IMG/VR virus record: IMGVR_UViG_3300025168_000380 | Span: 1-31,352 of that record | Strand: one strand, 5' to 3' | Source of the DNA: a virus | DNA length: 31,352 nucleotides | Shown: piece by piece, positions 2,173 through 31,352 of the stretch | Layout: each line of letters starts with the position of its first letter | How positions within the stretch are numbered: position 1 is the stretch's first letter | Notes under the pieces: model-generated | Database searches by the model: none | Seen by the model: only the letters and a program-made list of their open reading frames with translations | Told to the model about the DNA's origin: nothing | Position numbers and translations under genes: made by a program

Positions 2173-2613
2173 TTGAGATTAACTGCGCAAGATTTGCGTG
2201 AAATGAATATCCTGAAGTATTACAGGCTCACTAGAAAGTGGGTCTGTAAAACTTACGGGTTAAAAGACGCAGACTTAGAATTATTAATTTATTTAGATTG
2301 TAAAGGAAGATTTACACGAAACGATTTTATCAACGGAGTTTATACATACTCGTGGGATAAAAACAGATGGGAGAGATTAAAACGAGAAGGTTGGATCGAA
2401 ACCTGGAGACACAGGAATAGAACCACTATTAAATACTCAGTATTTAAAACCTCATTCAAATGCTCTCAAATGATAAGTAGAATATATAGAATTCTACTAG
2501 GTGAGGAAGACTTACCCACTTCAGATAGAAGTGTATTCTATAACAATAAATCATATACAGATAAAGTTTATAATAAAGCTATAGATGATATGATTAAAGA
2601 TAAAGATAGATAA
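2173..2613 (+). CDS. MarR-like winged-helix protein, TTG start
   Basis: 146 residues, predicted winged helix-turn-helix. The pattern is a helical N-terminus (ILKYYRLTRKWVCKTYGL), then DADLELLIYLDCKGRFTRNDF, which reads like the first helices of a MarR domain. A recognition-helix-like WDKNRWERLKREGWIETWR and a beta wing RNRTTIKYSVFKTSF follow. This arrangement is common in marine Bacteroidota phages, usually annotated hypothetical or MarR-like. The start appears to be TTG at 2173, three bases after the previous stop, because similar proteins begin at this position (RLTAQDLREMNILKYY); the ATG at 2203 is the alternative. It may regulate late genes or bind DNA during packaging; neither is shown. 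Confidence 0.65.
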   Translation: MRLTAQDLREMNILKYYRLTRKWVCKTYGLKDADLELLIYLDCKGRFTRNDFINGVYTYSWDKNRWERLKREGWIETWRHRNRTTIKYSVFKTSFKCSQMISRIYRILLGEEDLPTSDRSVFYNNKSYTDKVYNKAIDDMIKDKDR

Positions 2614-2615
2614 TT

Positions 2616-2999
2616 ATGGAGGGACAATTTAAACTACCTAATCAAAATAGGTTTCGTAACAATCAAGGGGGTTTTACGCATTCTAACGAAGAAGCTGCGC
2701 CTGGAACTCCAATTATTAGAAAAGATTTAGCTAAAGGGATATTAGCCGAGGCTAATGACGATGGAAGTATATTTGTTAGTAACATGCTAGAGCCAGGTAG
2801 TGCACAAGAACGTGCAACTTTGGCGCATGAAATGCAACACATTACAGACATGAAGGTTGGAAAGTTGAAGTACACTGATGACATGATAATGTGGAATGGA
2901 AGAAATTACGCTAGATTACCTAAAGGAAAAATAATGTTCGAAGGTGAAAAACTTAATGAAGGTGACCCAAGCTTACCATGGGAATCTGCAGCAATGTAA
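2616..2999 (+). CDS. HExxH zincin-like metallopeptidase candidate
   Basis: 127 residues. The key motif is HEMQH (in LAHEMQHITDMKVG, about residues 70-83), the HExxH zinc site in which two His bind metal and Glu activates water. A conserved-looking PWESAA near the C-terminus (about residues 121-126) could supply the third, glutamate, ligand. The N-terminal third (N-R-F-R-N-N, then EEAAPGTPIIRKD) contains a typical small-phage-protein lead-in. There is no signal peptide or membrane segment. It lies just before a SET-domain gene and a holin-like gene, so a role in lysis is possible, but maturation proteolysis or host-protein cleavage fit equally well. Related proteins in marine phage contigs are usually left unannotated. 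The metal site is visible; the activity is not proven. Confidence 0.6.
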   Translation: MEGQFKLPNQNRFRNNQGGFTHSNEEAAPGTPIIRKDLAKGILAEANDDGSIFVSNMLEPGSAQERATLAHEMQHITDMKVGKLKYTDDMIMWNGRNYARLPKGKIMFEGEKLNEGDPSLPWESAAM

Positions 3000-3001
3000 T
3001 C

Positions 3002-3358
3002 ATGGGATATAAAATGAAAGGATTTTCCGGTTTTACAGATGGTAGTTTTAATGTCAGTAAGTCTAACATTGACGGTATTGGAGTTATGGCGTCTAAAGGT
3101 ATAAAAAAAGGTGAACTCATAGGAACAGCTATTGATGACGAAGTTGGAGTAAAATCGTCAACTCAACTTGACACAAGAACAATACTAGGTAGATCTCTCA
3201 ACCATCAAAACAGTGAAAATGCAATACAAAAAAGCGAAGATAACTCTTTAAACGTGTATGCTAAAAAATCTATTGAAAAAGGAGAGGAGATTACAATAAA
3301 TTATAATAACGCACCTTCTTATGTTAGTAAAAATACAGAAGGTTATAAAGAAATATAA
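3002..3358 (+). CDS. Small SET-domain protein
   Basis: 118 residues, nearly all one minimal SET domain, the fold of protein-lysine methyltransferases. The SET-start signature is GIGVMASKGIKKGELIG (usually G-x-G-V-F-A...I-x-x-G-E). The SAM-binding pseudoknot residues are in GRSLNHQNSENA (usually R-x-x-N-H-S-x-x-P-N). The C-terminal motif is VYAKKSIEKGEEITINYNN, with the expected EEIT-x-x-Y. There is no pre-SET or post-SET cysteine cluster. I chose the ATG at 3002, just after the upstream stop; an in-frame ATG at 2978 would overlap the HExxH gene. With this start the protein begins MGYKMKGFSGF, the same tag as the gene at 5623. It abuts the holin-like gene with no gap. Substrate unknown; a virion or host protein is possible. 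Confidence 0.72.
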   Translation: MGYKMKGFSGFTDGSFNVSKSNIDGIGVMASKGIKKGELIGTAIDDEVGVKSSTQLDTRTILGRSLNHQNSENAIQKSEDNSLNVYAKKSIEKGEEITINYNNAPSYVSKNTEGYKEI

Positions 3359-3751
3359 ATGAGCATACTGTCTAACATATTCTCATCTGGAGCAACCGAG
3401 CTTGTTAAAGGCGTAGGTGGTATTATAGATGACCTACATACATCTAAAGAAGAAAAACTTGCTGCTGAGCTTAAAATAAAGGAGCTTATAAGTAATTATG
3501 AAATAGAGATGGAAAAACAAATTACATCTCGATGGGAGGCTGATATGAAATCTGACTCGTGGTTAGCTAAAAACATAAGACCACTTGTTTTAGCTTTCTT
3601 GGTAGTATCAACGGTTTTAATGATATTCATTGACGCTGGAACAATAAAGTTTATAGTCGAACCTAAGTGGACAGACTTATTACAATTAGTATTAATAACC
3701 GTGATTGGCGCTTATTTTGGCGGTAGATCATTAGAAAAAGTAAAAAAATAA
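3359..3751 (+). CDS. Holin-like membrane protein (GTA/3TM holin type)
   Basis: 130 residues. The first 60 are a soluble, charged helical segment (HTSKEEKLAAELKIKELISNYEIEMEKQ). A motif WLAKNIRPLVLAFLVV begins the first membrane helix (about residues 75-92). A short outer loop with P-K-W-T-D leads into a second helix (about 104-121) ending IGAYFGGRSLEK. This layout, with N-I-R-P before the first helix and a glycine-rich GGRS at the end, is that of the 3-transmembrane holin family known from gene transfer agents and marine phages, which opens the inner membrane at lysis. Only two strong helices are visible. The start codon follows the SET stop directly. No endolysin is recognisable beside it. 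Confidence 0.7.
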   Translation: MSILSNIFSSGATELVKGVGGIIDDLHTSKEEKLAAELKIKELISNYEIEMEKQITSRWEADMKSDSWLAKNIRPLVLAFLVVSTVLMIFIDAGTIKFIVEPKWTDLLQLVLITVIGAYFGGRSLEKVKK

Positions 3752-3754
3752 ATT

Positions 3755-4399
3755 ATGGGACAAAATTCAACAGAAGTAGCTTACGGTTTTGGTCAATTTG
3801 GTAGTGCTTACACAGACTTAGCAAAACCAATAGTACCTCCAACTGGGTTGGTTATAACAGCTATTACATTTCTAGCAGATAACACTCCAACTGTTTTACA
3901 ATCTGAAAAATTACAAGGCACGGGGCCTAGTTACATTAGCATACAAGATACGAGTGGAGATATTCAGATAGCAAATAACTTTGCTAATTTTAATGGCGTT
4001 GTTGCTAGAGATGTTTCAAATGGAACTATAGCCGCTGGAGCTGATGTTACGATAGCCACTCCTAGTGATAAAATTAAAGTAGGGCAATACGTTTTGTTAG
4101 TAGCCGCTGGAGATACTGATACAACTGGTATTTCTATTGATTCAGAAACACGAATCCCAATCACCACAGGGCCTCTTCAACGAGGTGTTAAAGTAGTTTC
4201 TTACGATGGAGCAACTACACTTACTTTAGATGCTCAAATAACACCTTCTACTCAAGGATTAATTTTTCTTGATGAATTTCATGGCGCTGGTGGCTTAACA
4301 GCCTCTTCACAGGTATTTCCAGCAGGTATTACTATATACGGTAGATGGACAACCTTCACACCATCTGCGGCTGGTGTGGTATGTTACTTTGGTAAATAA
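3755..4399 (+). CDS. Virion surface protein with beta module
   Basis: 214 residues, probably a virion decoration or fibre-base protein. The N-terminus MGQNSTEVAYGFGQFGSAYT and the C-terminus with FPAGITIYGRWTTFTPSAAG resemble small structural proteins I know from marine tailed phages, in which the last strand ends near the stop. The middle (about residues 80-175) contains a beta module: an entry strand KIKVGQYVLLV, a loop rich in Asp/Thr, then GVKVVSYDGATTLTLDAQI. Similar modules occur in the capsid, adaptor and giant proteins of this window. Its stop overlaps the next start (TAATG at 4397-4401), which suggests coupled translation with the lectin-like protein that follows. Exact location on the virion is unknown. 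Confidence 0.55.
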   Translation: MGQNSTEVAYGFGQFGSAYTDLAKPIVPPTGLVITAITFLADNTPTVLQSEKLQGTGPSYISIQDTSGDIQIANNFANFNGVVARDVSNGTIAAGADVTIATPSDKIKVGQYVLLVAAGDTDTTGISIDSETRIPITTGPLQRGVKVVSYDGATTLTLDAQITPSTQGLIFLDEFHGAGGLTASSQVFPAGITIYGRWTTFTPSAAGVVCYFGK

Positions 4400-5622: not shown

Positions 5623-5904
5623 ATGAGCACACCATTTAAAATGACAGGATTTTCTGGATTTGGGAATTCACCAGTAAAACAAAGCAAGAAGACTGATAAA
5701 GATTATGAAAAGATGTTAAATGAGATGGGTGGAAATTCAGTTAGTGATACCTTAGTCTCTGGTTCTAGCATATCTCAATCTACAGCTAATAAGAAAGCTA
5801 ATTTTAATTACCGACAAGCTTCTAATAAGCCTTATAAAAACGAAAAAACCATTCAAAACACAAAGACAGGCAAGTACACAACTTATAAAGTGGGTCCTAA
5901 ATAA
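5623..5904 (+). CDS. Small protein with KMxGFSGF N-terminal tag
   Basis: 93 residues, low complexity and probably disordered: rich in Ser, Lys, Asn and Thr, with no hydrophobic core. It starts MSTPFKMTGFSGFGNSPVKQ; the K-M-x-G-F-S-G-F element is also at the start of the SET-domain protein at 3002, and tags of this kind are common on small proteins of marine Bacteroidota phages. The remainder ends in a lysine/threonine-rich stretch (NTKTGKYTTYKVGPK). Its stop overlaps the next start (TAATG at 5902-5906). Function unknown; possibilities are a packaged virion peptide or a scaffold-like partner. Confidence 0.55.
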   Translation: MSTPFKMTGFSGFGNSPVKQSKKTDKDYEKMLNEMGGNSVSDTLVSGSSISQSTANKKANFNYRQASNKPYKNEKTIQNTKTGKYTTYKVGPK

Positions 5905-11392: not shown

Positions 11393-12562
11393 ATGGAAGC
11401 AAAAGAAAAAAAAGTAGTCGAAGAGACTATCCAAGAAACGACTGAACAAGTTGATGAAAGTAAATTTGAAAGTGCTGGAGATGACAGTGTTGTTAAAATA
11501 GATTTAAGTAAACCACCACCAGAAAAAAATGAAGTTAAAGAAGATAACGCTGACAACAGCGGAGTGGTTGCAGAGTCTGAAGATGCCGAGCCCACACAAG
11601 AACAAGAAAAAGTACAACCGGAAACTGAAACACAAGAAGCTCCAGTATTAGAAGAGATTACTGAAGAGCAGGTTGAAGAAGTTGAAGAGCAGGTTGAAGA
11701 AGCTATAGCAGAAGCTGAGGCTACTGGAAAACCTTTACCAGAAGATATCCAAAAGTTATTGAACTTTATGGAAGAAACTGGAGGTGATTTAAATGATTAC
11801 GTTAAGCTTAATCAAGATTATTCAAAATTAGATGATCAAAATCTATTATACGAATACTATAAGCAAACAAAACCTCATTTAAACAACGAAGAAATTAACT
11901 TCCTTATGGAAGACACGTTCTCATTCGACGAAGATATGGACGACGAAAGAGATATACGTAGAAAGAAATTAGCGCTTAAAGAGCAAGTTGCCAGCGCTAA
12001 AAGCCACTTAGACGGGCAAAAGTCTAAATACTATGAAGAGATCAAAGCTGGAAGCAAACTTACGGGTGAGCAACAAAAAGCAATTGATTTTTTTAATAGG
12101 TACACTAAACAATCGAAAGAATCAGATAAGCATGCTACGTTACAAGCTAAAACTTTTTCTAAAAAAACTGACGAGGTTTTTAACGATAAATTCAAAGGTT
12201 TTGAATACAACATCGGGGACAAAAGATTTAGATTTAATATTAGTAATGTAGATAGTGTTAAAACAGACCAAAGTAGTATTAACAATTTTGTGGGAAAGTT
12301 TCTCGACAAAAACAGCGTAATACAAGATGCTAGGTCTTATCATAAATCATTATTTACAGCTAATAACGCAGACGCTGTAGCTTCTCATTTTTATGAGCAA
12401 GGTAGAACGGATGCACTAAAACACAGCATAGCTAGTTCGAAAAACATAGATATGTCACCAAGACAAGCCAACAAACAAGTGCAAGTCGGTGGTATAAAAG
12501 TTAGAGCGCTAGGTGAAGATTCTTCTGATTTTAAGTTTAAGATTAAAAACAAAAATAAATAA
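11393..12562 (+). CDS. Probable capsid scaffolding protein
   Basis: 389 residues with the hallmarks of an internal scaffold: a very acidic, Glu-rich and probably disordered first 115 residues (for example EEITEEQVEEVEEQVEEAI) and a helical middle (LNDYVKLNQDYSKLDDQNLLYEYY; DERDIRRKKLALKEQVASAKSHL). A basic C-terminus (KFKIKNKNK) follows, suited to binding the capsid protein inside the prohead. It lies between portal and major capsid genes, as expected. No maturation protease is visible in or beside it, so how it leaves the head is open. A Glu-Val-rich internal repeat (EEQVEEVEEQVEEA) spans about residues 92-106. No homology to a specific scaffold family can be claimed by eye. Confidence 0.75.
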   Translation: MEAKEKKVVEETIQETTEQVDESKFESAGDDSVVKIDLSKPPPEKNEVKEDNADNSGVVAESEDAEPTQEQEKVQPETETQEAPVLEEITEEQVEEVEEQVEEAIAEAEATGKPLPEDIQKLLNFMEETGGDLNDYVKLNQDYSKLDDQNLLYEYYKQTKPHLNNEEINFLMEDTFSFDEDMDDERDIRRKKLALKEQVASAKSHLDGQKSKYYEEIKAGSKLTGEQQKAIDFFNRYTKQSKESDKHATLQAKTFSKKTDEVFNDKFKGFEYNIGDKRFRFNISNVDSVKTDQSSINNFVGKFLDKNSVIQDARSYHKSLFTANNADAVASHFYEQGRTDALKHSIASSKNIDMSPRQANKQVQVGGIKVRALGEDSSDFKFKIKNKNK

Positions 12563-17136: not shown

Positions 17137-20100
17137 ATGCCAGAAATCAAACGTAACTTCGTCAAAGGTAAAATGAATAAGGATCTAGACGAAAGGATAG
17201 TTCCAAATGGAGAGTACCGAGATGCTTTAAATATAGAAGTAGCTACATCTGATGGTTCTGATGTTGGTACCGCTCAAAACATAATGGGTAACACAAGGAG
17301 AAGTAGCACCAACAGCAGGTATCTTAATTCAGCTGTTAGTATAGGTGGTTCGAGTCTCAGTAGTATTAGTGAGAATGATTGTATTACTGTTGGTACGGTT
17401 CCCAACCCTATTAACAACACTATTGTTTGGTTACAACACGCTCACCTTAAAGTTATAGATGTAAATGGAGGTAGAAGGCAGTTTTTAGAGTTTGATAGAA
17501 TATTAGAGCACGATACAAAAACAAATTCTAACAGCGGTATTCTTGTAGACAACTATAGAACAGCTGTTAAAGTAAATAATGGTAAATCCTCAAACACAAC
17601 CAATGACATAAACATATCTTCCACTGGCATATCGGCAAATGGTGTTAGAGTTGGTATGACCGTGCAGTGTTTCGCCCCTAATGGCGACAACTACTGGACA
17701 AACCCAGTATATACAAGTCATTTTATTGACGCAGACGCTATTGTAACTGTAAAAAGTATTAGTGGATCTAATATAACCGTTGGTGTAACTAATCATTTTG
17801 TTAATAGTGCTTGGACTGAAGATGGAAAAGGTTCTGATATAACTTTTCCTAGTGGCGCTATATTGGTTTTTGAAGCAGAAAAAGTTTTAAACTTCAACGA
17901 AGATAGACTCATAACTGGTATAAATATAGTAGATAATGTTTTATTCTTTACTGATAACGAGAACGAGCCTAAAAGAGTAAGTATAGAAAGATCTAAAGCA
18001 GGTACTTTTGGTTTAGATTCTCATACTATACTATTTTCAAATGGTATACTACAAGATGGTTCGGCTGCTAATCCGTTGACGTATGTTAGTGAAGAGCACA
18101 TAACCGTTATAAAAAAATCACCATTATTTCCTCCAACATTACAATTATCAAACACCACGAGAGGTGATGGTAATAAGGTCATAAATACTATTTCCAATTA
18201 CCACCCTATATATAGTGCGGCCACTATAACTGCTAATGCTTCTTTTAGTGCTTGTAATACGTACACTGGTAGTTACGATACAGGATCATCTGATTTTGGT
18301 TTTTTATATAACCCAACAACAGGTACTTCTTATGTTATAGACGATGACCCTTTAATTCCAAATCCTGTTATAACAATACTAGTACCCTCTAATTCTTCGT
18401 ATGATTTTTTACAAAATGATAAACTAATACTTACAGCTACTTCTGTCAGTGGAGGATTAGCAAAAACACACGAGGTTAATACATTGGTATTAAATAGCCC
18501 TGCACTTAATACACCTTTATCGACGACGAGTAGTGCTCACGAGTGTTATGCTCATCAAAACGGCTTAGTAGAACTTGAACTTGAGTTAACTTCTATCGCT
18601 ACTAGTATCCCATTAGACAAAGACGAAATAATTAGTTGGGATGTTAAACTAGATCAAGAAAAAGAATCTATGTTTAAGTTTAAATTTCCAAGATTTGCTT
18701 ATAGGTGGAAATATGAAGATGGTGAATACTCTTGTTTTTCTCCTTTTACTGAAACAGCTTTTGTTCCTAGTAAATTTGATTACATGCCTAGAAAAGGGTT
18801 TAATTTAGGTATGACTAATGAAGTTAGGTTGTTGTACTTAAAAGATTTTATTAATTCTGAAACACCAGAAGATGTTGTAGAAGTTGACTTATTATACAAG
18901 GAATCAAACGCGCCGAATATATATACTGTAAAAACTCTAAAAAAAGAAATACACACAGGTGTTGCACTTACACCAGCTGATTTAGAATGGACAAATGATT
19001 TATTTAGTATTGAATCTGATTTAATATACGCCACTGTTGAGGGTAATCAAATATTAAGACCATGGGATAATGTTCCTAGAAAAGCTTTAGGACAAGAGAT
19101 TGTAGCGAACAGATTGGTGTTTGCTAATTATTTACAAAATTATGATTTAATAGACAACGCAGGGGAGGTTGTTACTCCTAATTTTGGATTATCAGTTGGT
19201 GATGTTACGTATACAAATTCTAATATACCAAAGTATAACGTTAGCACTCCTGTTGCTAGAATGCCAGAAAGATCTATAAAATCTTTAAGAACATACCAGA
19301 TTGGTATTGTTTACAAAGATAAGTATGGTAGAGAAACGCCTGTTATAACAAGCCACAGTGATAGCACTACGATGTCTTTATATCTTGAAAAGGAAAGAGC
19401 AACTAATTACAACCAATTACTAGTAAGTAATGTTTCTGGTCAAGATTTAAAACACCCAGAGTGGGCTGATTCTTTTAAGTTTTTTATAAAAGAAACGTCT
19501 AATGAATATTACAACTTAGCTATGGATCGTTGGTATCCAGCTGAGGATGGTAACGTATGGTTAAGTTTTCCTTCTTCGGACAGAAACAAAGTTGACTCAG
19601 AAACTTTTATAATCCTTAAAAAGGAACACGACAATGACACCGCTGTAGAGAGTAGAGCTAGATATAAATTATTAGCAGTTGAAAACATAGCACCTGAATT
19701 TATAACAAAGAAAAAACATAGTTATGGTAATGTAACAACATCATTTGCTGCAACAGGATTACCATCAACAGATGCTACCTTTGTAGACGTTGCTTTTTCT
19801 TCTTTTTCTTCTACTGGGTTAAACGGAACGATATTTCCAACAAAACAACCAAACTTATTACTTAGAGTATCATCAGCAGATGCCAAATCGTTTTGGTATA
19901 GAATAAATGATATAACAGAAATTGGTAGTAATGTTAGGATAACAACAGAAAAAGCTTTTGAAGTAGACATGAACTTTACTGGCGACGGAAGTGGAACTGG
20001 TGCTGGTAATCCAGCTTTATCACTAGAAATCGTACAGGAAAGAAAAGAACCTACTAAAGAATTTCAAGGAAGATTTTTTGTTAAAATACACAGGGATGTA

Positions 20101-23100
20101 GATTTAGAAACACATGTTTTACATCAAACAGATGATCAAGACTTTATTGTAACTGACACTCTTAGGTATACAGCTTTAAGTGTTAGTGAGTTAGATTATT
20201 TTTCACAAACTTCAGACAAAATATATGGTTATGACGCCGCTACGAGTGGTACTATTCAATCGTCTAAATATCCATACGAACTTCTTAAATCAGCTGGTAA
20301 TCCCGCAACTGATTTTGGTCACAAAAACTATTTAGATCCAATTGATTTACAATTAGCAAAACAGTTTTGGACAGGAGAGAGAGCTGGCGCTGGAGGTAAT
20401 GCTAACGCGTTACACTTTAATTTCCCAGCTGAATCAGCAGACGGGGTAACTGGAGAAGGGTACGTGCGGGAAGATGCTTGGAAAAGATTCTCTTGGTTTA
20501 TAGACTCTCAGTGGGGAGAAAATCCTATTAAAAACGGTATTTCTTATGTAGCTTCTAAAAGCTATAATTGGGGAGAAGAATATTTAGTTTCTGAAATTGG
20601 CGCCTTTGACGCGGGAATGAGTTTAGGTGTTTTGCCTAAAGCAGATCCTTCTGATCCAGTTATACAGGACGCTAGTCTTTTTCAAAGTATATTAAAAGGG
20701 GTTGGAGATACTGGTACTTTCCCACTTGCTGGAATGTTTAATCTAACAGTAGCCTCTGCTTTTAACTCTTACATAAATATATCTGAATACACTTTTGGAG
20801 ACCCAACAGGACACAGCAGTTTTAGTGACAACTCAATAGTAGAACTTGGAGAATCATTTGTTGTATCACCGAATACATCTCAAGTAGTAGAAGTATATAA
20901 AAATTTAGATAGAAATTTAAACGAAAACACTTGGAAGGGTTTTACAAACGTTGATTTATACCCATCGCCAGGTAATTATCCAAGATATGCGGAAGGATTA
21001 AATTCTGAACCTAATAATTATTTTCTTGATTATAGCGAAATGGACGCTAACAATGATCATTTAGATGGCAAGTACGTTACCGTTGAAAAAAATGATTATG
21101 TAAATTTTGCTGGAACCAATGCTTTTAAATTTACCGCTCAGCACGATGAAACAATAGTAAAAATAAATACACAGTTTCAAGTTAGACCATCTTTAGATTG
21201 TGATCCAGACCATCCAACAGAACCTTATGGAGACTTTATTGGTGGACAGGAGTATGACGGCGCACCAGATGCTAATGGTGATCCAAATCTCTATACTCAG
21301 GTCTTAGGGGGTTTCAACTCGCAGTTAAGAGAAATGATTGTAGATGGTGATGATTTTGAAGGTATGTTTAAGGATACTACAGTTGCTAATTCTTTAAATA
21401 CATCTTATGATTCTAATATTGACACGAGTACTTGTGATACTAATTTAATAGGTGCTAATGGAAGTATTACACAGCATATGTTTGGTGGTGGTGGGACAGA
21501 GTTTGGCAAGTGGTATAGATTTCGTAACAAAACAGCGAAAGATAATAACACTCCATTTCCAGAGGTTAATGACGATCCTATAAATCCAATTTTAAATAAT
21601 GAGATTAGTTGTAGACGTAAAAATGTAGTAATGAAATCTGTTGGTGCACCCGGTAGTAACAGAAATATTACTGGAATATCACAATTGGTAAGTGTACCTA
21701 TACCAACTCTAGTTAACGGTAACGGAGCTAGATACGCTAGAATTGATATTGACTACAACTACGTTACAACAGGTGGTAGTGCTAGTAAGATAGAAATGAG
21801 GGCCAATAAAGATGCGTTTGCAGCAAATATAGGTAGTCACAACTATACCTTGCCCTTGGTTAATGAAACAGGGACAAGAACTATGACACTTGACCTAACA
21901 GGGTTGGCCGGAGATTTGGTTGTAATATCTGTAGCTTTCTTAGGTAATCATGATGATTGTCAATTGGAGATTACTAAAGTTTCTTTTCAACACGAAAAGT
22001 TCAGTAAAACAGAACTACATATTGATGTTGACGCACCAGTTCCTGGACAAACATTCTTAGGTACTTACTTTGATCCAAACATTACTTCTACTAATTACGA
22101 TATTACACCTGTAGCCACACCTACAGTGCCAACTATCACCACGGGTGGGGAGTGTCCTGGGTGTAAGTTTACCGGTACTATTGATGGGTCTTCCCCTGCG
22201 GGTATGTCTTCTTTCGTGGGTGATTACCCTGTGGTTGGAGGTTTAACTGGTGTAAACGCAAGATTAACTCTTCACCACAATAATACGTCGTTTTCATCTA
22301 ACAAAGCAACTGGAACTGTCATAGCTGATGAATCTACTGGATTTGTTCCCGAGCATAATGGTAATGCTTTATGTTTTAATAAAATGGTAGCAAGTACGCC
22401 TCAAGAAAACACTGGTATTTTGGTTAGAGGTGATCACTTTTATGCTAAAAACGATTATCACTTACAGTTGATATTAGCAGCGGTTGAAGATGTTAAGTTA
22501 AACGCGGGTGAGTCTTGTTGGATTCAACTTGAGTCTTATGAAAAGGAGTTTGATTATAAACACTATATTAGCGAATGGTTTTTTGCAAAGATATATAATT
22601 CTCTAAACATGGTAACCGGGGTAACTCCAGCTTGGATCGAAAAATACATGCATTTGAATTGGGATTCAACTGATCACACGAAAACGTTAATAGAAGGTTC
22701 TACTTCTGGTGGTAATATTAATATCGCGGACGCTCGGGCAGCTGCAAATCCTTATTACAGAATACGCGGTAGCTATGGTGGGCCAATTGAAATTGTAGAG
22801 GGTAACGAAAACAGCTGTAATTTAGAGCAAGATTTTGTACACGACCTAATAACACCACAAATGGAGTTGCAAGACAATAGTACTGGTGATAATAATTTAG
22901 GTAAAATAACACACCCAGTTTGGGGAGATGCGCAACATCCTTCATCCACGTGGAACATGGCTAGTGTGGCTTCAAAAAATAGAGCTGATTATTTTGATCC
23001 AATGGGTATAGGTTTCACGCCAGGAACAGAGCCTTGGGGTAGTAATAAGTTGTGGAATGATACTTTTCAAACAAAAGATAGATCAAGTAGACTTTTTGGG

Positions 23101-26100
23101 GGTATAGCTCTTCCTGCTGGTTTCGGAACTACCGACGGAGATTTTGTCACAACCTCTGTTAGTGGTGTGCCAGAGTTTACTGAGGACATTGGTACCGTGG
23201 GATATTGGGGGTTAAATCCGTGGAAGTTAAGACATACCGCTGAGTGGCATATTGCATTTGGTAGTTCTCCTAGACCTGATATTTCATACGCTAGTGGTGG
23301 GACTTGGGAAATAGACATGTGGGATGTAAATGGAATGACAAGTTTTTATCCAGTTCTAGGTTTTGGATCTGGAATTATACCGCTATTACAGTATGCCGCT
23401 GGGTCACCTTACAATGAAATTAGTATAGATAGTCCTATTGATAGAATTCCGGAAAAGTTTTTAACTCAATTTGAGTTAGATCAATGGGATGAAGATTCCA
23501 CTACTTTCCGTAGTAAAGGCTATCTGTCTGGCAACAACACTTCTTCGAGTGGTGGTGTTAACGCGTATGATGTTGTAAGCTCTAGTATGTACAACCACAA
23601 GCACCCTGCTTTTAAAAATATTTTCGAATATTTATTTCACTTTTCCGCCGCGACAGCCGTAAATACACCAGACTCGGATAAGGTGTTTTTAGCTGGAGCA
23701 ACAGATAGAAGTGGTCCACCGCCAGTTTCTTTTAACTCTACTTACCAAACTAGTTTTTTATTATACGATAGGTTTACATGGAAAGCAATGTCTTCTGGTA
23801 ATTTCATAAACTTTTCGTTCCAATGGGATCCAGCAGACAAAAAGCATGATTATGGATATCCTTTGTTGTTTCCATTTCATAAACTCAACAATGGAGCTAA
23901 TTACAATTACGATCCTACTTCAATGCCTAATATTGGTAATTGGAACACTAGAGACACTGACCACGAAGATATCACTGGTTGGGTTGGTACTAGAATAGCT
24001 GTTGACGATGCTACAATTACGATTAACGCTAACCACACTTATACAGCACAAACATTTGATTCAAGTTTAGATATTAACAGTAATTTATTTTCGGATAAAA
24101 TGACTAGTTATAAAACTGATTTAATTAACTCTCCACTATTCCTTCCTCTTTCTCAAGAAGACTCTGTTATCACTATTAAGTCTTTAGTAAGTGGTGGTAT
24201 AACTAATAGTTACCTTGTTGGTTGGAAGATAATAGAATTTGATGATGATGGATTAAATCCTGTTGGTGGAATGTTTAAGGTTGACACTATTGTAACAGCT
24301 GTTAGTGCTGAGTATTCTTGCGCTGGGGATTTTTGTGTTGACATTAGTTTGAGTAAGATACCAAATATGACTGCTGCTTATACTTTTGGTGGTACTTTTG
24401 ATCCTAAAATAACGTTTGTAAACACTACAGCTGATGTTCTTTTACATCCAACGCCTTGGAAAGATGATTTAAGAGCAATTTATTTTCCACCCGAAGAAGA
24501 TGGAGTTATTGACAATAGTCAATCTTGGTATGATGATTGTTATCACCACATATCTAGTGCGATACCAAACATTACAGGGTCTAGAGATTTTTCCGGTTAC
24601 GGATTATATGATAGCGGTAAAAAACTACACTTGTCTTTTGGTGGTATAAACAATACTATAGAAAACTGGAAAAAATCTGCTTATAACCTTGGAGTTTTTC
24701 ACCCTGAGTTATCTTCTAATTTGTGGAACTTAAAATCTAACGGGACTCTATTTAGGTTTAAGGATGACCCTAACAAATGTATATTTAAAATAAAATCTTC
24801 GGTAAATAGTTTTGACCAAAACACAAACGGTATTGGTATTAGAAACTACATGCCTGCTTACACGAATACTTCAGAGGAAGACTGGGATCACCCTAGCTTT
24901 AATGCTACGCATTTAGAAGACGATGTTAAAGATCCATACAACAAACGTGTTAGGTTTTATTTAAGTATAGAGTACACTGGCTGGAATGTCACTTGGGATG
25001 GGACTACTACATCAGCCACGGGTGATTACGTGTTTAACCCAGAAGCTGAAGTAATAGCTATGGGTATAGGTCATAAAGATAATACATCTGCAAACGCTGC
25101 AGATTTTCCTGAATTAACACATAACCCTGTTCTTGGTACCGAATCAAACCCGGTTGCAACTAATTTGTTTGATTCTTCTGATACGGCTTATCAAGGTGAG
25201 ATGTATAGCACTATGGAGTTTGTTGCTCCTGATTGGGACGGGTCAGAAGATTTTACGTCAGCTAATCCAGCCATATGGGAAACTGAACCTAAAGAAGATT
25301 TAGATTTAGATATATATTATGAAGCAAGTCCTTCTTATCCTGTAAAGTTAAATGGCAAAAACGCTGAAAATTATTTTAGAGGAAACTACTTAACAGCCAT
25401 AGCTCCGGTTATAGTTGTTACAGATCCTAGTGGCAATGTAACTTCTCAGATCATATTAGATACTGTAACTGAAGAAGCTGGAGAAATTATATTAGAATTT
25501 ACAAGTGCTGCAATCACAGCGACCTCTATGTCATTAACTAACGTTCCGGTTTTAAGATTTACATCGCAAGACGGTAGTTATGTTGAAGCTAAAATTAAAA
25601 GACATTATTATAGCGCTACAAATTGGGCTAAAAAATCTAGTGTAGAAATAACTAGTCCTACAGACGAAGACACTAAATTTGGATTACCATATTTCAATTG
25701 TTTTTCTTTTGGAAACGGTGTAGAGTCTGATAGAATTAGAGATGATTTTAATGCTGTTACCATTGGTAAGGGTGTCAAAGTATCAACCACTCAGGGCGAC
25801 GTGCGTTATAAAGAAGAAAGAAGAAAAAATAGTTTTATTTTCTCTGGTATATACAATAGTAATAGCGGTATAAATAAATTAAATCAATTTATAACAATAG
25901 AAGATATAACTAAAGAGCTAAACCCTGTATATGGTAGCATTCAAAAACTACATACTAGAGACACTGATTTAACTGCTTTTTGTGAGGATAAAGTTTTAAG
26001 AGTATTAGCCAACAAGGATGCTTTGTTTAATGCTGACGGTAATTTTCAGTTAACCTCTAACAAAAACGTTTTAGGTCAAGCTGTTCCTTACTCTGGAGAA

Positions 26101-29100
26101 TATGGTATAGGTACTCATCCAGAATCATTTGCAAGCTATGGTTATAGAAGTTACTTTGTAGACAAAAACAGAGGCTGTGTTCTTAGGTTGTCTAGAGATG
26201 GTGTAGAGGTTGTTTCTAACTACGGAATGAAAGATTACTTTAGAGACAAACTAGACAATGATATAGATAGAATACTAGGATCTTACGACCCTCACGCGGG
26301 TAATTATGATGTTACTATTAGGTCTGGTTACACTTCTGATGCTACTATATCTTTTAATGAACAAACCAATGGGTGGGTTAGTTTTAAATCTTATCTACCT
26401 AACATGGGTGTTTATTTAGATAGTTCATACTATACTTTTAAGCATGGTGAAATATTCTCACACTACACAAATAACTTTAGAAATAATTTTTACACAAGCT
26501 TTAGTACTTTAAATGAGTTACATTATAACTCAACTATTAGTTTCTTGTTTAATGAATCTCCTAATGTTGTTAAAAGCTTTAATACTTTAAACTACGAGGG
26601 TAGCGTTGCTAGAATAACAGCGGATCCACCTTCAACCGCTCAAGAGTTATTAGATGGCGTTTCTTATCATAGTCACGATGGATCAAAGCCTCCTTCTGGT
26701 TATGGCGAATACTACAATAACACAGGTTTAGAGGGTTGGCATGTTCCTAATGTGGAAACGAACTTACAATCAGGCACGGCTATTGAGTTTAAAGACAAAG
26801 AAGGTAAATACTTTACAGCAATTAAAGGTGAAACTACAAACTGGGAAGCAGGTGATAGACCTGGTAATGTTGATACAAATGAATTTTCAGTACAAGGTAT
26901 AGGTAATGCAATGAAAATCGAAGCAGAAAACCCAACTGGTGCCCCTCAAGAATACTCATTAGCTGTAAACGCGGACTGTTGGACTGGTGCATTTGTTTAT
27001 GGTTGTACAGATCCGCTGGCAATCAATTACAATCCGCAAGCCAATGTTGATGATGGAAGTTGTTGCTTAGTAAGTGGTTGTATGGTTCCTGTTGCTAGTA
27101 ACTATGATCCTAGCGCTTGTTTTGACGATGGTTCTTGTTTAGGGGTTGTTTATGGTTGTACAGACCCTACAGCGTTTAACTACTCAAGTAATTACAACTG
27201 GCCATTAACAACGGTGGCATGTGATCCAGGTCCTGGTCTAACGCCAGCGAATTGCTGTTGTTATATTTCTGGATGTAACGATGCGAGCGCTTTAAACACG
27301 GATCCTAACGCTTGTCATAATGACGGTTCTTGTATTGCTATAGTTTATGGATGTACTGATAGTGGTTCTACATCATACTGGGACAAAACCCCATCAAATT
27401 GGGATGGATCATTTAGTTCTTATCCACCTCCGTATAGACCTAATGGATATTCAGGAGCTGCCCTAAATTACTATGCTGGAGCTAACTTAGACGACCCAAC
27501 TAACCTACTTAATGAATGCTGCTATGTTTCAGGATGTATGGAGAATGACCCAGGTTTTAGTCCGGACACTAATGGTTATGGCTATGATGCTGTTTATAAT
27601 TGCGACCTTACAACAGGTGGTTCTAGAACAGTACCAACAAACGTAGCTTCAATATCACCATGTCCTTTTCCGTGTAGTAGTGATGGTACTACTAATGGTA
27701 CTCCACACGGTTACGAGTCTGAAAACTACAACCCGTGCGCTTGTATAAGTGATGGAAATTGTATTAAAACTTATGGGTGTACAAATCCAAATGCCATAAA
27801 CTATAACTCTAACGCAACTATCGATGATGGTAACTGTTGTTTGATTCAAGGATGTATGGATAATACAGAGGGACCTTGGCCTAACTACGCGGGAGCTTGT
27901 AGAGATGGTTTTGTTCCAGCTACACCAACTATAGTAGGTCAAGACCCACAGGCTACACTTTTGCGTCAATGTGATTATGGGTGTACTGTTGATGGTTATG
28001 CTTATGCTAAATGTGGTTGGTCAACGTATAATACTTTTAATCCGGACGCCTGTAACAACGGGACTGGTGTTGTAAACAATCCGGGGAATATTAACTATTC
28101 AATCACTCAAGCACAATGGGATTATAATTCTGGTACTGCAACTGGTGGCAATCTAGTTGTAAACAATATAACAGATGATGCTGAAAGTGGATATGAAACT
28201 GAAGATTGGTGTTTTACACCAACCTATGGTTGTTTTGATTTAACTGCTGGTGACAACCCGGATGTATTTGGTAACTGCTCGCCTGGTAATGGCTCTTGTA
28301 GTGGTACTGGATGCTGTAGTAATGGCACTGGTTATTTAGCATCGAATACAAACGCTCCAGATTGGTGTCATGATGCGAATAATTTAGATTTCCCTTACAA
28401 CAGCGGTAGACCAAACAACGCTTTAACAAGTTATAAAAGTAGCACTGGTAACTGTATTGGGCATACACAAACCGCATGTGTTATATACGGATGCACAAAT
28501 CCTGTGGCTACAAATTACATACAAACAGCTACTATAGATGATGGTTCATGTATTATACCAGCTTATCAATGCCCGGCAACATCGCTGTACTGGCCTGCAG
28601 AAACTTTAAGTTCAAATGGGGAATTTTTAGAAACAGATTTTACTGATTTGTACGCACCAAACTCTGGAACGCCAGTTGCTAATTTCTACGCCGCAAGCGG
28701 TACGCTTGGAACAATATCAACGTGGATTGGTGTTACCGATCAGATATTTGAAAAATATATGGATGACATATGTTTGACTGACGGTGGTTTAGACCCTATT
28801 CTTTATGCTCAAGTAGGTCCAGATGGAACCACTTGTACTGATTGTGTTTACCGTGGGTGGAGTCAAGCTGGTACAACTTTAGAATACTGTATCGATTGGG
28901 ATTTTGCAAACTGGGACTTTAACACGCCGATAATTGACAATTGTGTTACATGGAGTAGTTATGATAACTTATTAGCTCCTGATGGAAGCACAATGAACAA
29001 TAAAGATAATGAGTTATCTGTGCCTTATGTAGATACTGGTTCTTCTATTAGTAATAATTATCAAGATCCAAAATGGTATACACACATTGGTTATGATAAA

Positions 29101-31352
29101 AACGCTTGGAACCCGAGTAGACAAGAAGGTTTGGGTGCTGTTGCTGGAGTAATGCATCACTTAGAGTATCTTAATATGGATTACCATCTAGTTAACGATG
29201 CTATTCCAACTAGAGACATGATAAGGTTAAAAGAAATCTCCTTGCATGACAACATTGTTGGTTATCACGGTATTAGAAATACATTTAAAGGGAGCTCAAC
29301 GTTACCAGGGATTTTTGACTTAGTGTATGCTACTGATTTAGAAAAAATCAACTTTGGTAATTATCAAAAACACATGTCTATGGCTTATGGACCGCAAAAT
29401 AATCCTGGGTATTCGTACGCCTCGCAAGGACACTTAAGGTTAAATATGGATGGCCAAGGTTCAGGTTGGACATATGGATCAGAGGCGATTTCTACCAAAA
29501 GATCTACTAAACTTAGCGGATACCAACATATTTTTAATAATGATAACGTCTGGTCTCAAGCTAGCAAGTTTGGAAACACTAGAGGTAATAGTGTTATACA
29601 TGGGTTAGATTGTGCCGGCAGTGGAAACTGTACGGATGCTTTTTTCCCAGGTCAACGTAATAATATGATAAATTACATATTAAACACAAGTGGTTCTAAT
29701 GACGGGTTAAAGTTTATAAATCTAAAATATTTAAATATAAATAATCAAGTACACGCTCAACAGTGGCTGCATTTTTATACAGGATCTCATATGAATGACC
29801 TTAACTGGTTAACAAGCACATCTCCTTGGGCCACTATAAATCCAGCGCATATTCAATTAGATTTATCAAAGCAAACTAAACTGGAGGAATTACATATGCA
29901 AGCATCTCCAGTGGCGTCTATATACTTTAACAATGGCTTTGAAAGTGGTTACTATCCAGAAACGTATGATAGCTACACGGTGGGTAGTGATAGTGTAGAC
30001 TTACTTCACACTGATTTTGCTGTTTTACCACAATTAAAAGTTGTTGACACTAGAAATAGCCAACTTTTTGCTCACGTTAACTTTTCTTACAATCGTCTTT
30101 TAGAAAAACTATATGTTGGTAGAGGGTATTTTCAAGAACAAGGTAGAGCACTATACAATAGTCACGTTTTCTTACCTTATATAGAGATGATAGACGCAAA
30201 ACTAGGGGACATTATATCTAACGAGTCTGTACCGCATTTTGATGATAATCAAACAATCATTAACCATAGCGATGGGAACATAATGGCTCCTACTTTTGAT
30301 TTTAAAGCAAATCCATCTAGCTTAAGAGAACTGTGGATTTTAGGGGAGAAAGTTGGAGGGAGTCAAACTATAACTTCTTTAGATAGAAAAGGTAGTGGAC
30401 TAGTTAGCGCAGAGTGTCACAGTTGTGACGACGCTGTTGGCAATATATTTGGCCCGCTAACTGGTAACAGCGGTGAACAATCTGTTAGAATGGATATAGG
30501 TAATCCATTGGAGCTTGTTAGTATGAGAGAGTTAAATGATATTAACTTAAGAATATGGACTAATGGAGCTATAGCTGTTGACGAAGTTGGTAGCACTGTG
30601 CCAATAATAAGCGGTAGCGGTAGCACAAGCAACCAAGCTAATGCTGGAAAATCTCACGTGTACTTCGGTAGAGCTGATGTTACTCTTGATAACTCTCATG
30701 GTAGTTTTATTGTCCACACAGATCATTTTAATAGAGCAAACAGCAGCAAGAACGTTGATATAAACACTCAGTCTGAAATTTATGGCCTTGACGAAACTGC
30801 TCTTGCTGCGACTCGAATAGTTCCAGGCGCGAGGTTGTCAGAAATTAGTCTTGATGCAGGAGGGGATTTCTTTTCTGTTTTAGATGTAGGTTGTTATGTT
30901 GTGTCTGTAAATAAAACTTCAATTAAACTTAGTCATAATATAGGTAGTTTTATAAACACAGTAAAAGGCGCTGGCTATGCAAATCTTACTAATGGTAGCG
31001 TTACACAGAGTCAAGCTAATATTACTTACGCTGTAAATCCATTAAATACAAACGAAATAACGATAACTGGTAATAATCTACGCGTGAAGTTTACTATGGA
31101 TACTCCTGATTGGGGTAGGCCAGACATGTACTTCAAGCTTAGAAGTGTCAACGACCATGTTTATAAAACTGAATTTGAGGGGTGGAATACAGCTTCTAAT
31201 GTAAACTACAAGTTTGGCGCTTTACATCCAGCGATAACTGGGCAGTTTCAAGTTAGTAGTGATATAGTATTACACTTTGGCTCTTCTAATAATGTAGACA
31301 ATTTTGTGCTTGAGTCTGGTGTTCAACTTGGTAGTGATGGTAAGGTTATCAG
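17137..31352 (+). CDS. Giant virion protein (>4,738 aa), 3' partial
   Basis: One frame, read through without any stop to the window edge: 4,738 full codons and still open. It starts MPEIKRNFVKGKMNKDLDER, then IVPNGEYRDALNIEV, the start of a conserved structural protein of marine Bacteroidota phages, often labelled stabilization protein. A beta module follows at residues 149-248, and IGIVYKDKYGRETPV near 725. A long insertion-rich region fills about 1000-2700, including a beta-sandwich near 1500-1620. A second conserved part at about 2709-3285 contains YFNCFSFGNGVESDRIRDDFN, TRDTDLTAFCEDKVLRVLANKD and SYFVDKNRGCVLRLSRDG. Alternating Cys repeats span 3288-3806, LRR-like units about 4009-4475, then more beta segments. 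The N-terminal and 2709-3285 parts likely anchor it to tail or neck; the C-terminal extension probably contacts the host. No enzyme motif seen. Confidence 0.9.
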   Translation, partial: MPEIKRNFVKGKMNKDLDERIVPNGEYRDALNIEVATSDGSDVGTAQNIMGNTRRSSTNSRYLNSAVSIGGSSLSSISENDCITVGTVPNPINNTIVWLQHAHLKVIDVNGGRRQFLEFDRILEHDTKTNSNSGILVDNYRTAVKVNNGKSSNTTNDINISSTGISANGVRVGMTVQCFAPNGDNYWTNPVYTSHFIDADAIVTVKSISGSNITVGVTNHFVNSAWTEDGKGSDITFPSGAILVFEAEKVLNFNEDRLITGINIVDNVLFFTDNENEPKRVSIERSKAGTFGLDSHTILFSNGILQDGSAANPLTYVSEEHITVIKKSPLFPPTLQLSNTTRGDGNKVINTISNYHPIYSAATITANASFSACNTYTGSYDTGSSDFGFLYNPTTGTSYVIDDDPLIPNPVITILVPSNSSYDFLQNDKLILTATSVSGGLAKTHEVNTLVLNSPALNTPLSTTSSAHECYAHQNGLVELELELTSIATSIPLDKDEIISWDVKLDQEKESMFKFKFPRFAYRWKYEDGEYSCFSPFTETAFVPSKFDYMPRKGFNLGMTNEVRLLYLKDFINSETPEDVVEVDLLYKESNAPNIYTVKTLKKEIHTGVALTPADLEWTNDLFSIESDLIYATVEGNQILRPWDNVPRKALGQEIVANRLVFANYLQNYDLIDNAGEVVTPNFGLSVGDVTYTNSNIPKYNVSTPVARMPERSIKSLRTYQIGIVYKDKYGRETPVITSHSDSTTMSLYLEKERATNYNQLLVSNVSGQDLKHPEWADSFKFFIKETSNEYYNLAMDRWYPAEDGNVWLSFPSSDRNKVDSETFIILKKEHDNDTAVESRARYKLLAVENIAPEFITKKKHSYGNVTTSFAATGLPSTDATFVDVAFSSFSSTGLNGTIFPTKQPNLLLRVSSADAKSFWYRINDITEIGSNVRITTEKAFEVDMNFTGDGSGTGAGNPALSLEIVQERKEPTKEFQGRFFVKIHRDVDLETHVLHQTDDQDFIVTDTLRYTALSVSELDYFSQTSDKIYGYDAATSGTIQSSKYPYELLKSAGNPATDFGHKNYLDPIDLQLAKQFWTGERAGAGGNANALHFNFPAESADGVTGEGYVREDAWKRFSWFIDSQWGENPIKNGISYVASKSYNWGEEYLVSEIGAFDAGMSLGVLPKADPSDPVIQDASLFQSILKGVGDTGTFPLAGMFNLTVASAFNSYINISEYTFGDPTGHSSFSDNSIVELGESFVVSPNTSQVVEVYKNLDRNLNENTWKGFTNVDLYPSPGNYPRYAEGLNSEPNNYFLDYSEMDANNDHLDGKYVTVEKNDYVNFAGTNAFKFTAQHDETIVKINTQFQVRPSLDCDPDHPTEPYGDFIGGQEYDGAPDANGDPNLYTQVLGGFNSQLREMIVDGDDFEGMFKDTTVANSLNTSYDSNIDTSTCDTNLIGANGSITQHMFGGGGTEFGKWYRFRNKTAKDNNTPFPEVNDDPINPILNNEISCRRKNVVMKSVGAPGSNRNITGISQLVSVPIPTLVNGNGARYARIDIDYNYVTTGGSASKIEMRANKDAFAANIGSHNYTLPLVNETGTRTMTLDLTGLAGDLVVISVAFLGNHDDCQLEITKVSFQHEKFSKTELHIDVDAPVPGQTFLGTYFDPNITSTNYDITPVATPTVPTITTGGECPGCKFTGTIDGSSPAGMSSFVGDYPVVGGLTGVNARLTLHHNNTSFSSNKATGTVIADESTGFVPEHNGNALCFNKMVASTPQENTGILVRGDHFYAKNDYHLQLILAAVEDVKLNAGESCWIQLESYEKEFDYKHYISEWFFAKIYNSLNMVTGVTPAWIEKYMHLNWDSTDHTKTLIEGSTSGGNINIADARAAANPYYRIRGSYGGPIEIVEGNENSCNLEQDFVHDLITPQMELQDNSTGDNNLGKITHPVWGDAQHPSSTWNMASVASKNRADYFDPMGIGFTPGTEPWGSNKLWNDTFQTKDRSSRLFGGIALPAGFGTTDGDFVTTSVSGVPEFTEDIGTVGYWGLNPWKLRHTAEWHIAFGSSPRPDISYASGGTWEIDMWDVNGMTSFYPVLGFGSGIIPLLQYAAGSPYNEISIDSPIDRIPEKFLTQFELDQWDEDSTTFRSKGYLSGNNTSSSGGVNAYDVVSSSMYNHKHPAFKNIFEYLFHFSAATAVNTPDSDKVFLAGATDRSGPPPVSFNSTYQTSFLLYDRFTWKAMSSGNFINFSFQWDPADKKHDYGYPLLFPFHKLNNGANYNYDPTSMPNIGNWNTRDTDHEDITGWVGTRIAVDDATITINANHTYTAQTFDSSLDINSNLFSDKMTSYKTDLINSPLFLPLSQEDSVITIKSLVSGGITNSYLVGWKIIEFDDDGLNPVGGMFKVDTIVTAVSAEYSCAGDFCVDISLSKIPNMTAAYTFGGTFDPKITFVNTTADVLLHPTPWKDDLRAIYFPPEEDGVIDNSQSWYDDCYHHISSAIPNITGSRDFSGYGLYDSGKKLHLSFGGINNTIENWKKSAYNLGVFHPELSSNLWNLKSNGTLFRFKDDPNKCIFKIKSSVNSFDQNTNGIGIRNYMPAYTNTSEEDWDHPSFNATHLEDDVKDPYNKRVRFYLSIEYTGWNVTWDGTTTSATGDYVFNPEAEVIAMGIGHKDNTSANAADFPELTHNPVLGTESNPVATNLFDSSDTAYQGEMYSTMEFVAPDWDGSEDFTSANPAIWETEPKEDLDLDIYYEASPSYPVKLNGKNAENYFRGNYLTAIAPVIVVTDPSGNVTSQIILDTVTEEAGEIILEFTSAAITATSMSLTNVPVLRFTSQDGSYVEAKIKRHYYSATNWAKKSSVEITSPTDEDTKFGLPYFNCFSFGNGVESDRIRDDFNAVTIGKGVKVSTTQGDVRYKEERRKNSFIFSGIYNSNSGINKLNQFITIEDITKELNPVYGSIQKLHTRDTDLTAFCEDKVLRVLANKDALFNADGNFQLTSNKNVLGQAVPYSGEYGIGTHPESFASYGYRSYFVDKNRGCVLRLSRDGVEVVSNYGMKDYFRDKLDNDIDRILGSYDPHAGNYDVTIRSGYTSDATISFNEQTNGWVSFKSYLPNMGVYLDSSYYTFKHGEIFSHYTNNFRNNFYTSFSTLNELHYNSTISFLFNESPNVVKSFNTLNYEGSVARITADPPSTAQELLDGVSYHSHDGSKPPSGYGEYYNNTGLEGWHVPNVETNLQSGTAIEFKDKEGKYFTAIKGETTNWEAGDRPGNVDTNEFSVQGIGNAMKIEAENPTGAPQEYSLAVNADCWTGAFVYGCTDPLAINYNPQANVDDGSCCLVSGCMVPVASNYDPSACFDDGSCLGVVYGCTDPTAFNYSSNYNWPLTTVACDPGPGLTPANCCCYISGCNDASALNTDPNACHNDGSCIAIVYGCTDSGSTSYWDKTPSNWDGSFSSYPPPYRPNGYSGAALNYYAGANLDDPTNLLNECCYVSGCMENDPGFSPDTNGYGYDAVYNCDLTTGGSRTVPTNVASISPCPFPCSSDGTTNGTPHGYESENYNPCACISDGNCIKTYGCTNPNAINYNSNATIDDGNCCLIQGCMDNTEGPWPNYAGACRDGFVPATPTIVGQDPQATLLRQCDYGCTVDGYAYAKCGWSTYNTFNPDACNNGTGVVNNPGNINYSITQAQWDYNSGTATGGNLVVNNITDDAESGYETEDWCFTPTYGCFDLTAGDNPDVFGNCSPGNGSCSGTGCCSNGTGYLASNTNAPDWCHDANNLDFPYNSGRPNNALTSYKSSTGNCIGHTQTACVIYGCTNPVATNYIQTATIDDGSCIIPAYQCPATSLYWPAETLSSNGEFLETDFTDLYAPNSGTPVANFYAASGTLGTISTWIGVTDQIFEKYMDDICLTDGGLDPILYAQVGPDGTTCTDCVYRGWSQAGTTLEYCIDWDFANWDFNTPIIDNCVTWSSYDNLLAPDGSTMNNKDNELSVPYVDTGSSISNNYQDPKWYTHIGYDKNAWNPSRQEGLGAVAGVMHHLEYLNMDYHLVNDAIPTRDMIRLKEISLHDNIVGYHGIRNTFKGSSTLPGIFDLVYATDLEKINFGNYQKHMSMAYGPQNNPGYSYASQGHLRLNMDGQGSGWTYGSEAISTKRSTKLSGYQHIFNNDNVWSQASKFGNTRGNSVIHGLDCAGSGNCTDAFFPGQRNNMINYILNTSGSNDGLKFINLKYLNINNQVHAQQWLHFYTGSHMNDLNWLTSTSPWATINPAHIQLDLSKQTKLEELHMQASPVASIYFNNGFESGYYPETYDSYTVGSDSVDLLHTDFAVLPQLKVVDTRNSQLFAHVNFSYNRLLEKLYVGRGYFQEQGRALYNSHVFLPYIEMIDAKLGDIISNESVPHFDDNQTIINHSDGNIMAPTFDFKANPSSLRELWILGEKVGGSQTITSLDRKGSGLVSAECHSCDDAVGNIFGPLTGNSGEQSVRMDIGNPLELVSMRELNDINLRIWTNGAIAVDEVGSTVPIISGSGSTSNQANAGKSHVYFGRADVTLDNSHGSFIVHTDHFNRANSSKNVDINTQSEIYGLDETALAATRIVPGARLSEISLDAGGDFFSVLDVGCYVVSVNKTSIKLSHNIGSFINTVKGAGYANLTNGSVTQSQANITYAVNPLNTNEITITGNNLRVKFTMDTPDWGRPDMYFKLRSVNDHVYKTEFEGWNTASNVNYKFGALHPAITGQFQVSSDIVLHFGSSNNVDNFVLESGVQLGSDGKVI
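26998..28554 (+). repeat. Alternating cysteine-rich repeat array inside the giant protein
   Basis: About 11-12 protein-level repeats of two alternating types. Type A runs YGCTDPxAxNYxPxAxxDDGSCC, type B runs SGC[MN]...DGSC, and the junction is always CC[YL][VI][SQ]GC[MN]. The clearest A units start at 26998, 27151, 27346, 27772 and 28483; the middle units are stretched or degenerate. A-type units are familiar from secreted marine Bacteroidota proteins. They probably form disulfide-stabilised, Asp-rich (possibly calcium-binding) small modules. Confidence 0.85.
29161..30570 (+). repeat. Degenerate leucine-rich-repeat stretch in the giant protein
   Basis: About ten irregular units start with the LRR signature L-x-x-[LIV]-x-[LFV]: LEYLNM, LKEISL, LEKINF, LKFINL, LEELHM, LKVVDT, LEKLYV, IEMIDA, LRELWI, MRELND. 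They are spaced 20-60 residues apart with loops that contain Tyr, Asn and Gly. The pattern resembles BspA-type bacterial surface LRRs. The fold is inferred; no repeat is perfect. Confidence 0.55.

Follow-up and report, generated by a model that had tools for sequence, protein, structure and literature searches.

What does a small SET-domain protein do for a virus of bacteria, and where does it go once it has been made? The question was raised by one gene in the window, by which we mean the whole stretch of 31,352 nucleotides analysed here (IMG/VR record IMGVR_UViG_3300025168_000380). The frame at 3002-3358 is open and complete and encodes 118 residues, with an HExxH gene (2616-2999) directly upstream and a holin-family gene (3359-3751) directly downstream. 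A sequence-only reading had described a SET protein of this length between these two neighbours in the late region. Reading frame, Pfam match and neighbours were all confirmed, and the gene was placed here in the late/lysis region. The window portal is 43.6% identical to those of Flavobacterium 'elemo' phages and 51% identical to that of an uncultured podovirus. On these identities the virus is likely a podophage of Bacteroidetes, and it probably infects marine bacteria of this group. An open frame of 4738 residues (17137-31350) runs off the end of the window. Several GCTDPxAxNYxxxAxxDDGSC-like units were seen by eye towards its end, and a tandem repeat finder reported none of them. The segment 5904-6494 is homologous to a gene that carries the annotation 'chaperonin cpn10' in Flavobacterium phage elemoA_13-1A, even though the phage already possesses a GroES-like gene of its own.

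Table 1. Positions of the features discussed, in coordinates of the window.
Feature	Position	Strand	Basis
Mini-SET protein, 118 aa	3002..3358	+	Pfam SET 8.2e-11; AF2 core; vSET first in Foldseek/PDB
N-terminal tag of SET, MGYKMKGFSGF; residues 1-10 predicted disordered (pLDDT <50)	3002..3034	+	Same start on unrelated proteins
GxG motif of SET-N, residues 25-27	3074..3082	+	G27 invariant, G25 >=90% in 39 phage mini-SETs
Asn67-His68, NH motif of SET	3200..3205	+	Invariant 39/39
Tyr101, catalytic-type Tyr of EEITINY	3302..3304	+	Invariant 39/39; aligned with EEITISY of vSET
Conserved gene g2173, left border of variable cassette	2173..2613	+	Homologs in 62 loci
Zincin-like HExxH protein; residues 5-7 are the tag variant FKL	2616..2999	+	HEMQH at residues 71-75
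Holin-family protein, right border of variable cassette	3359..3751	+	phrog_3427 holin, E 9.5e-33
Second tagged protein, starts MSTPFKMTGFSGFGNSPVKQ	5623..5904	+	16.1% Lys, pI 9.9
C-terminus FKFKIKNKNK of gene before MCP (putative scaffold, named by position)	12530..12559	+	Resembles tag FKxK

The protein matched the Pfam SET family (PF00856) with 42.7 bits, against a curated cut-off of 22.4 (E 8.2e-11), in an alignment that covers the C-terminal part of the profile only (positions 62-105). PHROG 34170 and 28741 matched weakly. When the single protein was compared with the PDB by sequence, PBCV-1 vSET was nearest (E 1.5e-3). With a 39-sequence profile the hits were KMT2D (1.7e-13), KMT2A (2e-13) and vSET (7.5e-12), and the KMT2/MLL group and vSET stood out. 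An AlphaFold2 model built on a 36-sequence alignment had a mean pLDDT of 80.5, with 66 residues at 90 or above and residues 1-10 below 50. Foldseek ranked vSET first in the PDB for this predicted model (E 5e-6, TMq 0.58). VIA gave a Z score of 12.8 with MLL1 (rmsd 3.1, 92 residues) and practically the same with vSET (Z 11.9, rmsd 3.3, 89 residues, 33% identity). In BFVD, the SET proteins that matched best came from giant viruses and uncultured Caudovirales. Relatives of a non-enzymatic kind only would have spoken against the sequence-only reading; the nearest solved relatives include the known methyltransferases vSET, MLL and SET8. The SET fold is shown here as a prediction.

Conserved active-site motifs were observed as well. 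GxG, NH and EExTxxY are all present, the last two having been read already from the letters alone, and the catalytic-type Asn-His and Tyr are invariant in the 39 aligned mini-SETs and also kept in an ortholog of 50% identity. Because the 39 sequences were chosen by profile (at least 45 bits; 83 thinned to 38, plus the window), their conservation is partly a result of that choice; S21 and I23 are invariant in the set too, yet they are not kept in the ortholog L237. The mini-SET reads NHQ where NHS is usual. GxG and NH are 40 residues apart in the window SET and 30-40 apart across the phage mini-SETs; in vSET the spacing is 52, and in four bacterial SETs, which come from four loci found by genome scan, it is 59. 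The insert of the bacterial SETs is missing from the phage mini-SETs, and by this spacing their SET-I is short. In known enzymes SET-I helps shape the substrate channel, and its aromatic residues line the lysine channel.

A short SET-I would also fit a catalytically inactive SET fold that serves as a binding module in the particle, and so would the phage proteins in which SET is fused to a tail-fibre-annotated part or heads a very large protein of 600-1300 aa. A pure binding module, however, would have no obvious need for the invariant Asn-His and Tyr, and we consider an inactive fold quite improbable. From fold and motifs we infer that the mini-SET is, with good probability, a compact SET-type SAM-dependent protein lysine methyltransferase. 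In the tail-fibre case (L008, 292 aa) two PHROG families match the N-terminal part, phrog_12032 ('short tail fiber protein') and the 'tail fiber adhesin' family phrog_24280. The large proteins (L105, L125, L140 and L171) carry the mini-SET at the N-terminus and show recurring xxGG motifs by eye. In two further loci (L164, 4198-7428, and L166), endonuclease, GNAT acetyltransferase and SET matches are joined in one protein.

No relative was returned when IMG/VR was scanned with the window protein by itself, the exact peptides being too specific, and orthologs were later found by profile. The SET scans kept 80 of 102 and 80 of 201 relatives. Scanning with the 39-sequence profile revealed two full-length orthologs (L237 and L238) with 50% identity to the window SET, in records whose TerL is 72% identical to that of the window. 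The SET genes of these two differ from each other at 18 synonymous codons and one non-synonymous codon. Between the window SET and L237, pN was 0.31 and pS, which is saturated, 0.77. The mini-SET gene is under purifying selection, and this selection together with the 50%-identity orthologs makes the reading frame more than chance. The Met at 3002, and not that at 2978, is likely the start of the protein, since both orthologs begin at the equivalent place and the L237 frame is closed two residues upstream.

The start of the protein recurs elsewhere. This N-terminal tag, which the sequence-only reading had missed, is the strongest clue to the destination of the SET protein. In a relative with a TerL 86% identical to that of the window (L053), three proteins open with MGYKM[NK]GFSG. 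A degenerate DNA pattern for the tag start was then searched in IMG/VR and gave 53 stretches, 52 of them new. In 39 of the new loci, core genes of the window phage lie near the tag. Of the remaining 13 records, 12 have the same TerL, at 61-93% for each aligned piece; a single record of 22.9 kb does not. Within the reach of the DNA pattern, the tag is all but limited to this phage lineage. The 104 distinct tagged sequences fell into 53 BLAST clusters by what stands behind the tag, the largest with 28 members; three clusters (8 sequences) look like chance matches. As references 96 of 103 were kept and seven were dropped as chance, one each from L091, L097, L106, L110, L111, L115 and L214. The 96 are small proteins of many unrelated families that carry the tag start in exact or looser form. 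Since the search fixed the peptide, the tag is bound to be invariant in the pattern-found set, but nothing in the search forces it to recur on unrelated bodies.

The 57 exact 11-residue starts are encoded by 48 distinct DNA sequences; each of the four Gly codons is used, and Ser is drawn from both of its codon boxes. It is therefore the peptide, and not the DNA, that these genes have in common, and a recent DNA copy was rejected as the origin of the tag. The tag was also rejected as a part of the SET fold, because the other phage SETs compared do without it and it is predicted to be disordered. The HExxH protein, whose residues 1-24 have a pLDDT below 50, is likewise predicted to be disordered at its start, and with disorder predicted in both proteins the tag looks like a conserved linear motif. 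In 39 aligned HExxH homologs, K6 is invariant and F5 and L7 are conserved to at least 90%. A separate scan gave 11 HExxH relatives. Some HExxH homologs gave weak Peptidase_M90/M91 and eCIS_core matches in Pfam, and the protein is possibly a packaged protease. Neither an HExxH protein nor a tagged protein of 225 aa had a significant tblastn match in 50,697 phage records. The string 'FKMKG' was not found in the open-access library searched, which is a weak negative, as subscription literature is mostly outside that search.

The bodies behind the tag were then compared. Tagged proteins of at least 50 aa (94 of 96) have a median length of 109.5, 18.4% Lys and a pI of 9.9. Unlike most of them, the window SET is not basic (pI 6.6). 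SPx[KR] occurs within the first 40 residues of 34 of the 96, most commonly starting at residue 14; motifs of this type recall DNA minor-groove binders. Among Pfam matches of the 96, SET was the only one accepted as an enzyme. ArgoMid (0.003), SHOCT and PhaP_Bmeg, with one tagged protein each, were taken as noise, and DUF6321, of unknown function, matched three. PHROG matches linked one tagged protein to a virion structural protein family (1.2e-6) and one to a tape measure family (0.0019). L171 and L178 have a 45-residue module in common (56% identity, E 3e-13), placed behind SET in the former and behind the tag in the latter, as though either of the two might stand at the head of one type of protein.

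As a control, the tag was counted in other genes. A tag-like start [FY]K[MLI] was found in 64 of 69 HExxH homologs, while none of the 1038 proteins from 18 other families of these phages had one, a count that includes tag-chosen loci and some ORFs cut at the 5' end. One of the two SETs found by homology in loci of the phage lineage had it too, as did all 13 matches of the 5623 family (partly owing to the tag itself); it was present in none of 62 holins. The strict tag was absent from 1819 ORFs in 155 loci of other SET-bearing phages, of which 24 had the loose form. The window and the 80 TerL-fetched loci, which were kept out of at least 600 relatives, gave the strict form in 13 of 1210 ORFs and the loose form in 48. 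These counts take the first Met of a frame only and therefore miss the window's own SET, and some contigs enter the background twice. Of the 98 unique SET ORFs compared, none but those of the window and L237/L238 have the FK[ML] start, and two other matches to the tag expression lie beyond residue 70. On the 19.5-kb coding strand of the L237 record (L316/G021), the loose start was seen, among the listed ORFs, only on SET (MSFKLKRP) and HExxH (MGFKLNG); from the background rate of 24/1819, about 0.4 would be expected in its ~31 ORFs. No other single argument for the importance of the start to SET is as strong as this co-tagging of SET and HExxH in a diverged genome.

The tagged genes also favour one place. 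Across 49 loci that have both g2173 and holin, the interval between the two makes up 8.2% of the bases and holds 40 of the 56 tagged ORFs on the same strand; the loci fetched through the tag bias this figure towards tagged genes. For the 24 loci picked without the tag, the interval holds 5 of 9 tagged ORFs in 6.5% of the bases, and only 3 of these loci have a tagged ORF there. The HExxH-to-holin interval, which is the place of SET in the window, contains a tagged ORF in 23 of 56 loci, and the SET gene thus occupies a slot often used by tagged genes. Common start and gene slot are, like purifying selection, direct observations. SET itself is rare in the phage lineage: among 28 loci of the TerL set with HExxH and holin (window included; 80 of at least 600 relatives), it stands in the slot in the window only. 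A close relative (L020, TerL 88%) has an untagged SET gene elsewhere (3352-3759, between g5397 and g5904), which is a separate acquisition or a displaced copy.

Since the slot lies between g2173 and the holin gene and the cassette adjoins lysis genes, the SET protein might be an active methyltransferase that works late in the infected cell and is never packaged. The tag would then serve a membrane or lysis complex, stability or delivery to a chaperonin. An amidase-like ORF in L316, named by eye, GroEL- and GroES-like genes upstream and the cationic character of tagged proteins fit such a role. However, there is no evident reason why a metalloprotease-like protein, SET and many small basic proteins should have a lysis signal in common, and the holins are without the tag. 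On balance we regard this alternative as unlikely.

A short N-terminal signal of this kind has a precedent in phage T4. As two sources describe, T4 packs small basic internal proteins with divergent bodies and a common N-terminal capsid-targeting sequence (CTS) of ~10 residues, and ejects many of them along with the ADP-ribosyltransferase Alt, which modifies host RNA polymerase (PMC9026906, PMC3012670). The likeness to the CTS with IPI-III and Alt lies in a short N-terminal signal on small, basic, variable proteins plus an enzyme, and it is a functional analogy only. The tag matches the CTS in being a common short N-terminal peptide on otherwise unrelated proteins. It is a different peptide from a different phage lineage, its enzyme would be a methyltransferase where Alt is an ADP-ribosyltransferase, and for the window phage packaging is a prediction. 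We infer that the SET protein is sorted into the head, which we hold to be slightly favoured.

How the tag might lead there is suggested by the putative scaffold. The tag contains FKxK or YKxK, and 44 of 49 homologs of the putative scaffold have FKxK within their final 15 residues (shuffled mean 5.9, maximum 13), a count that gives no probability because the homologs are related. That the tag imitates this tail is a suggestion only. The scaffold contains 11.8% Lys and the MCP 3.1%, with a pI of 4.6. The lysine-rich capsid that the sequence-only reading had offered as a methylation target was not borne out by this composition, and the capsid was rejected as a lysine-rich substrate. Within the phage, the co-tagged proteins are better candidate substrates by virtue of their median Lys content and pI. 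The enzyme could accordingly methylate the phage's own lysine-rich tagged proteins, or the scaffold, during head assembly, tuning the binding of DNA or shell or shielding them from a protease such as the HExxH protein. Co-tagging would unite enzyme and substrates, and the SPx[KR] motifs agree with a role of this kind. Many relatives, though, have tagged proteins with no SET seen in the fetched stretch, and the coding strand of 19.5 kb of the SET-bearing L316 shows no tagged ORF besides SET and HExxH, which makes modification of the phage's own proteins an improbable main role.

The second precedent is PBCV-1 vSET (A612L), a viral H3K27 methyltransferase that acts on histone H3 of a eukaryotic alga. 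Like the window protein, whose model it matches best in Foldseek, it is a small stand-alone viral SET; it differs in the GxG-NH spacing given above. To our knowledge, vSET has no comparable N-terminal tag family. According to two papers, PBCV-1 virions package vSET (PMC7019647, PMC3946773). SET matches were also found in other tailed phages, namely Kolga gp27, the ct1fd225 and zth2-2 fusions and PHROG 34170/28741. To these are added 'SET domain containing protein [uncultured Caudovirales phage]' in BFVD and ORF62 of S. maltophilia phage Ps15. Kolga gp27, ct1fd225 and zth2-2 have the compact core and the invariant residues in common with the window SET, but among the 98 unique SET ORFs compared the other phage SETs differ in lacking the FK[ML] start.

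Taken together, we propose that the gene encodes a compact SET-type SAM-dependent protein lysine methyltransferase, and that its first ~11 residues, of the FK[ML] type, may be a lineage-specific sorting signal for the prohead, which it would enter alongside the other tagged proteins, perhaps through mimicry of the FKxK tail of the scaffold. The enzyme would travel in the capsid and, in the manner of T4 Alt or PBCV-1 vSET, reach the host cell together with the DNA, where it could methylate lysines of host proteins; the lysine-rich co-tagged proteins would be a second possible substrate. Methyltransferase activity and head sorting support each other. Against the proposal stand the pI of the SET protein, the contact of the slot with lysis genes, the rarity of SET and the untagged, displaced SET of L020. 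The whole reading, a lysine methyltransferase sorted into the prohead and perhaps injected, seems to us to fall a little short of an even chance. Still more tentative is the wider picture of an FK[ML] packaging code that loads variable cargo, including a lysine methyltransferase delivered with the genome, as a counterpart of T4 Alt and PBCV-1 vSET.

Among the listings of an open-access library, no study of phage SET function or of this tag was found, the closest being one line on phage Ps15 ORF62, and this is a weak negative. Phage SET genes are already annotated in databases; what is new here is the N-terminal tag. It predicts where the SET enzyme goes and names its likely companions. If this is true, the tag would be a cargo signal for a marine phage group, and the phage would offer a system for testing the lysine methylation of bacterial proteins by an incoming virus.
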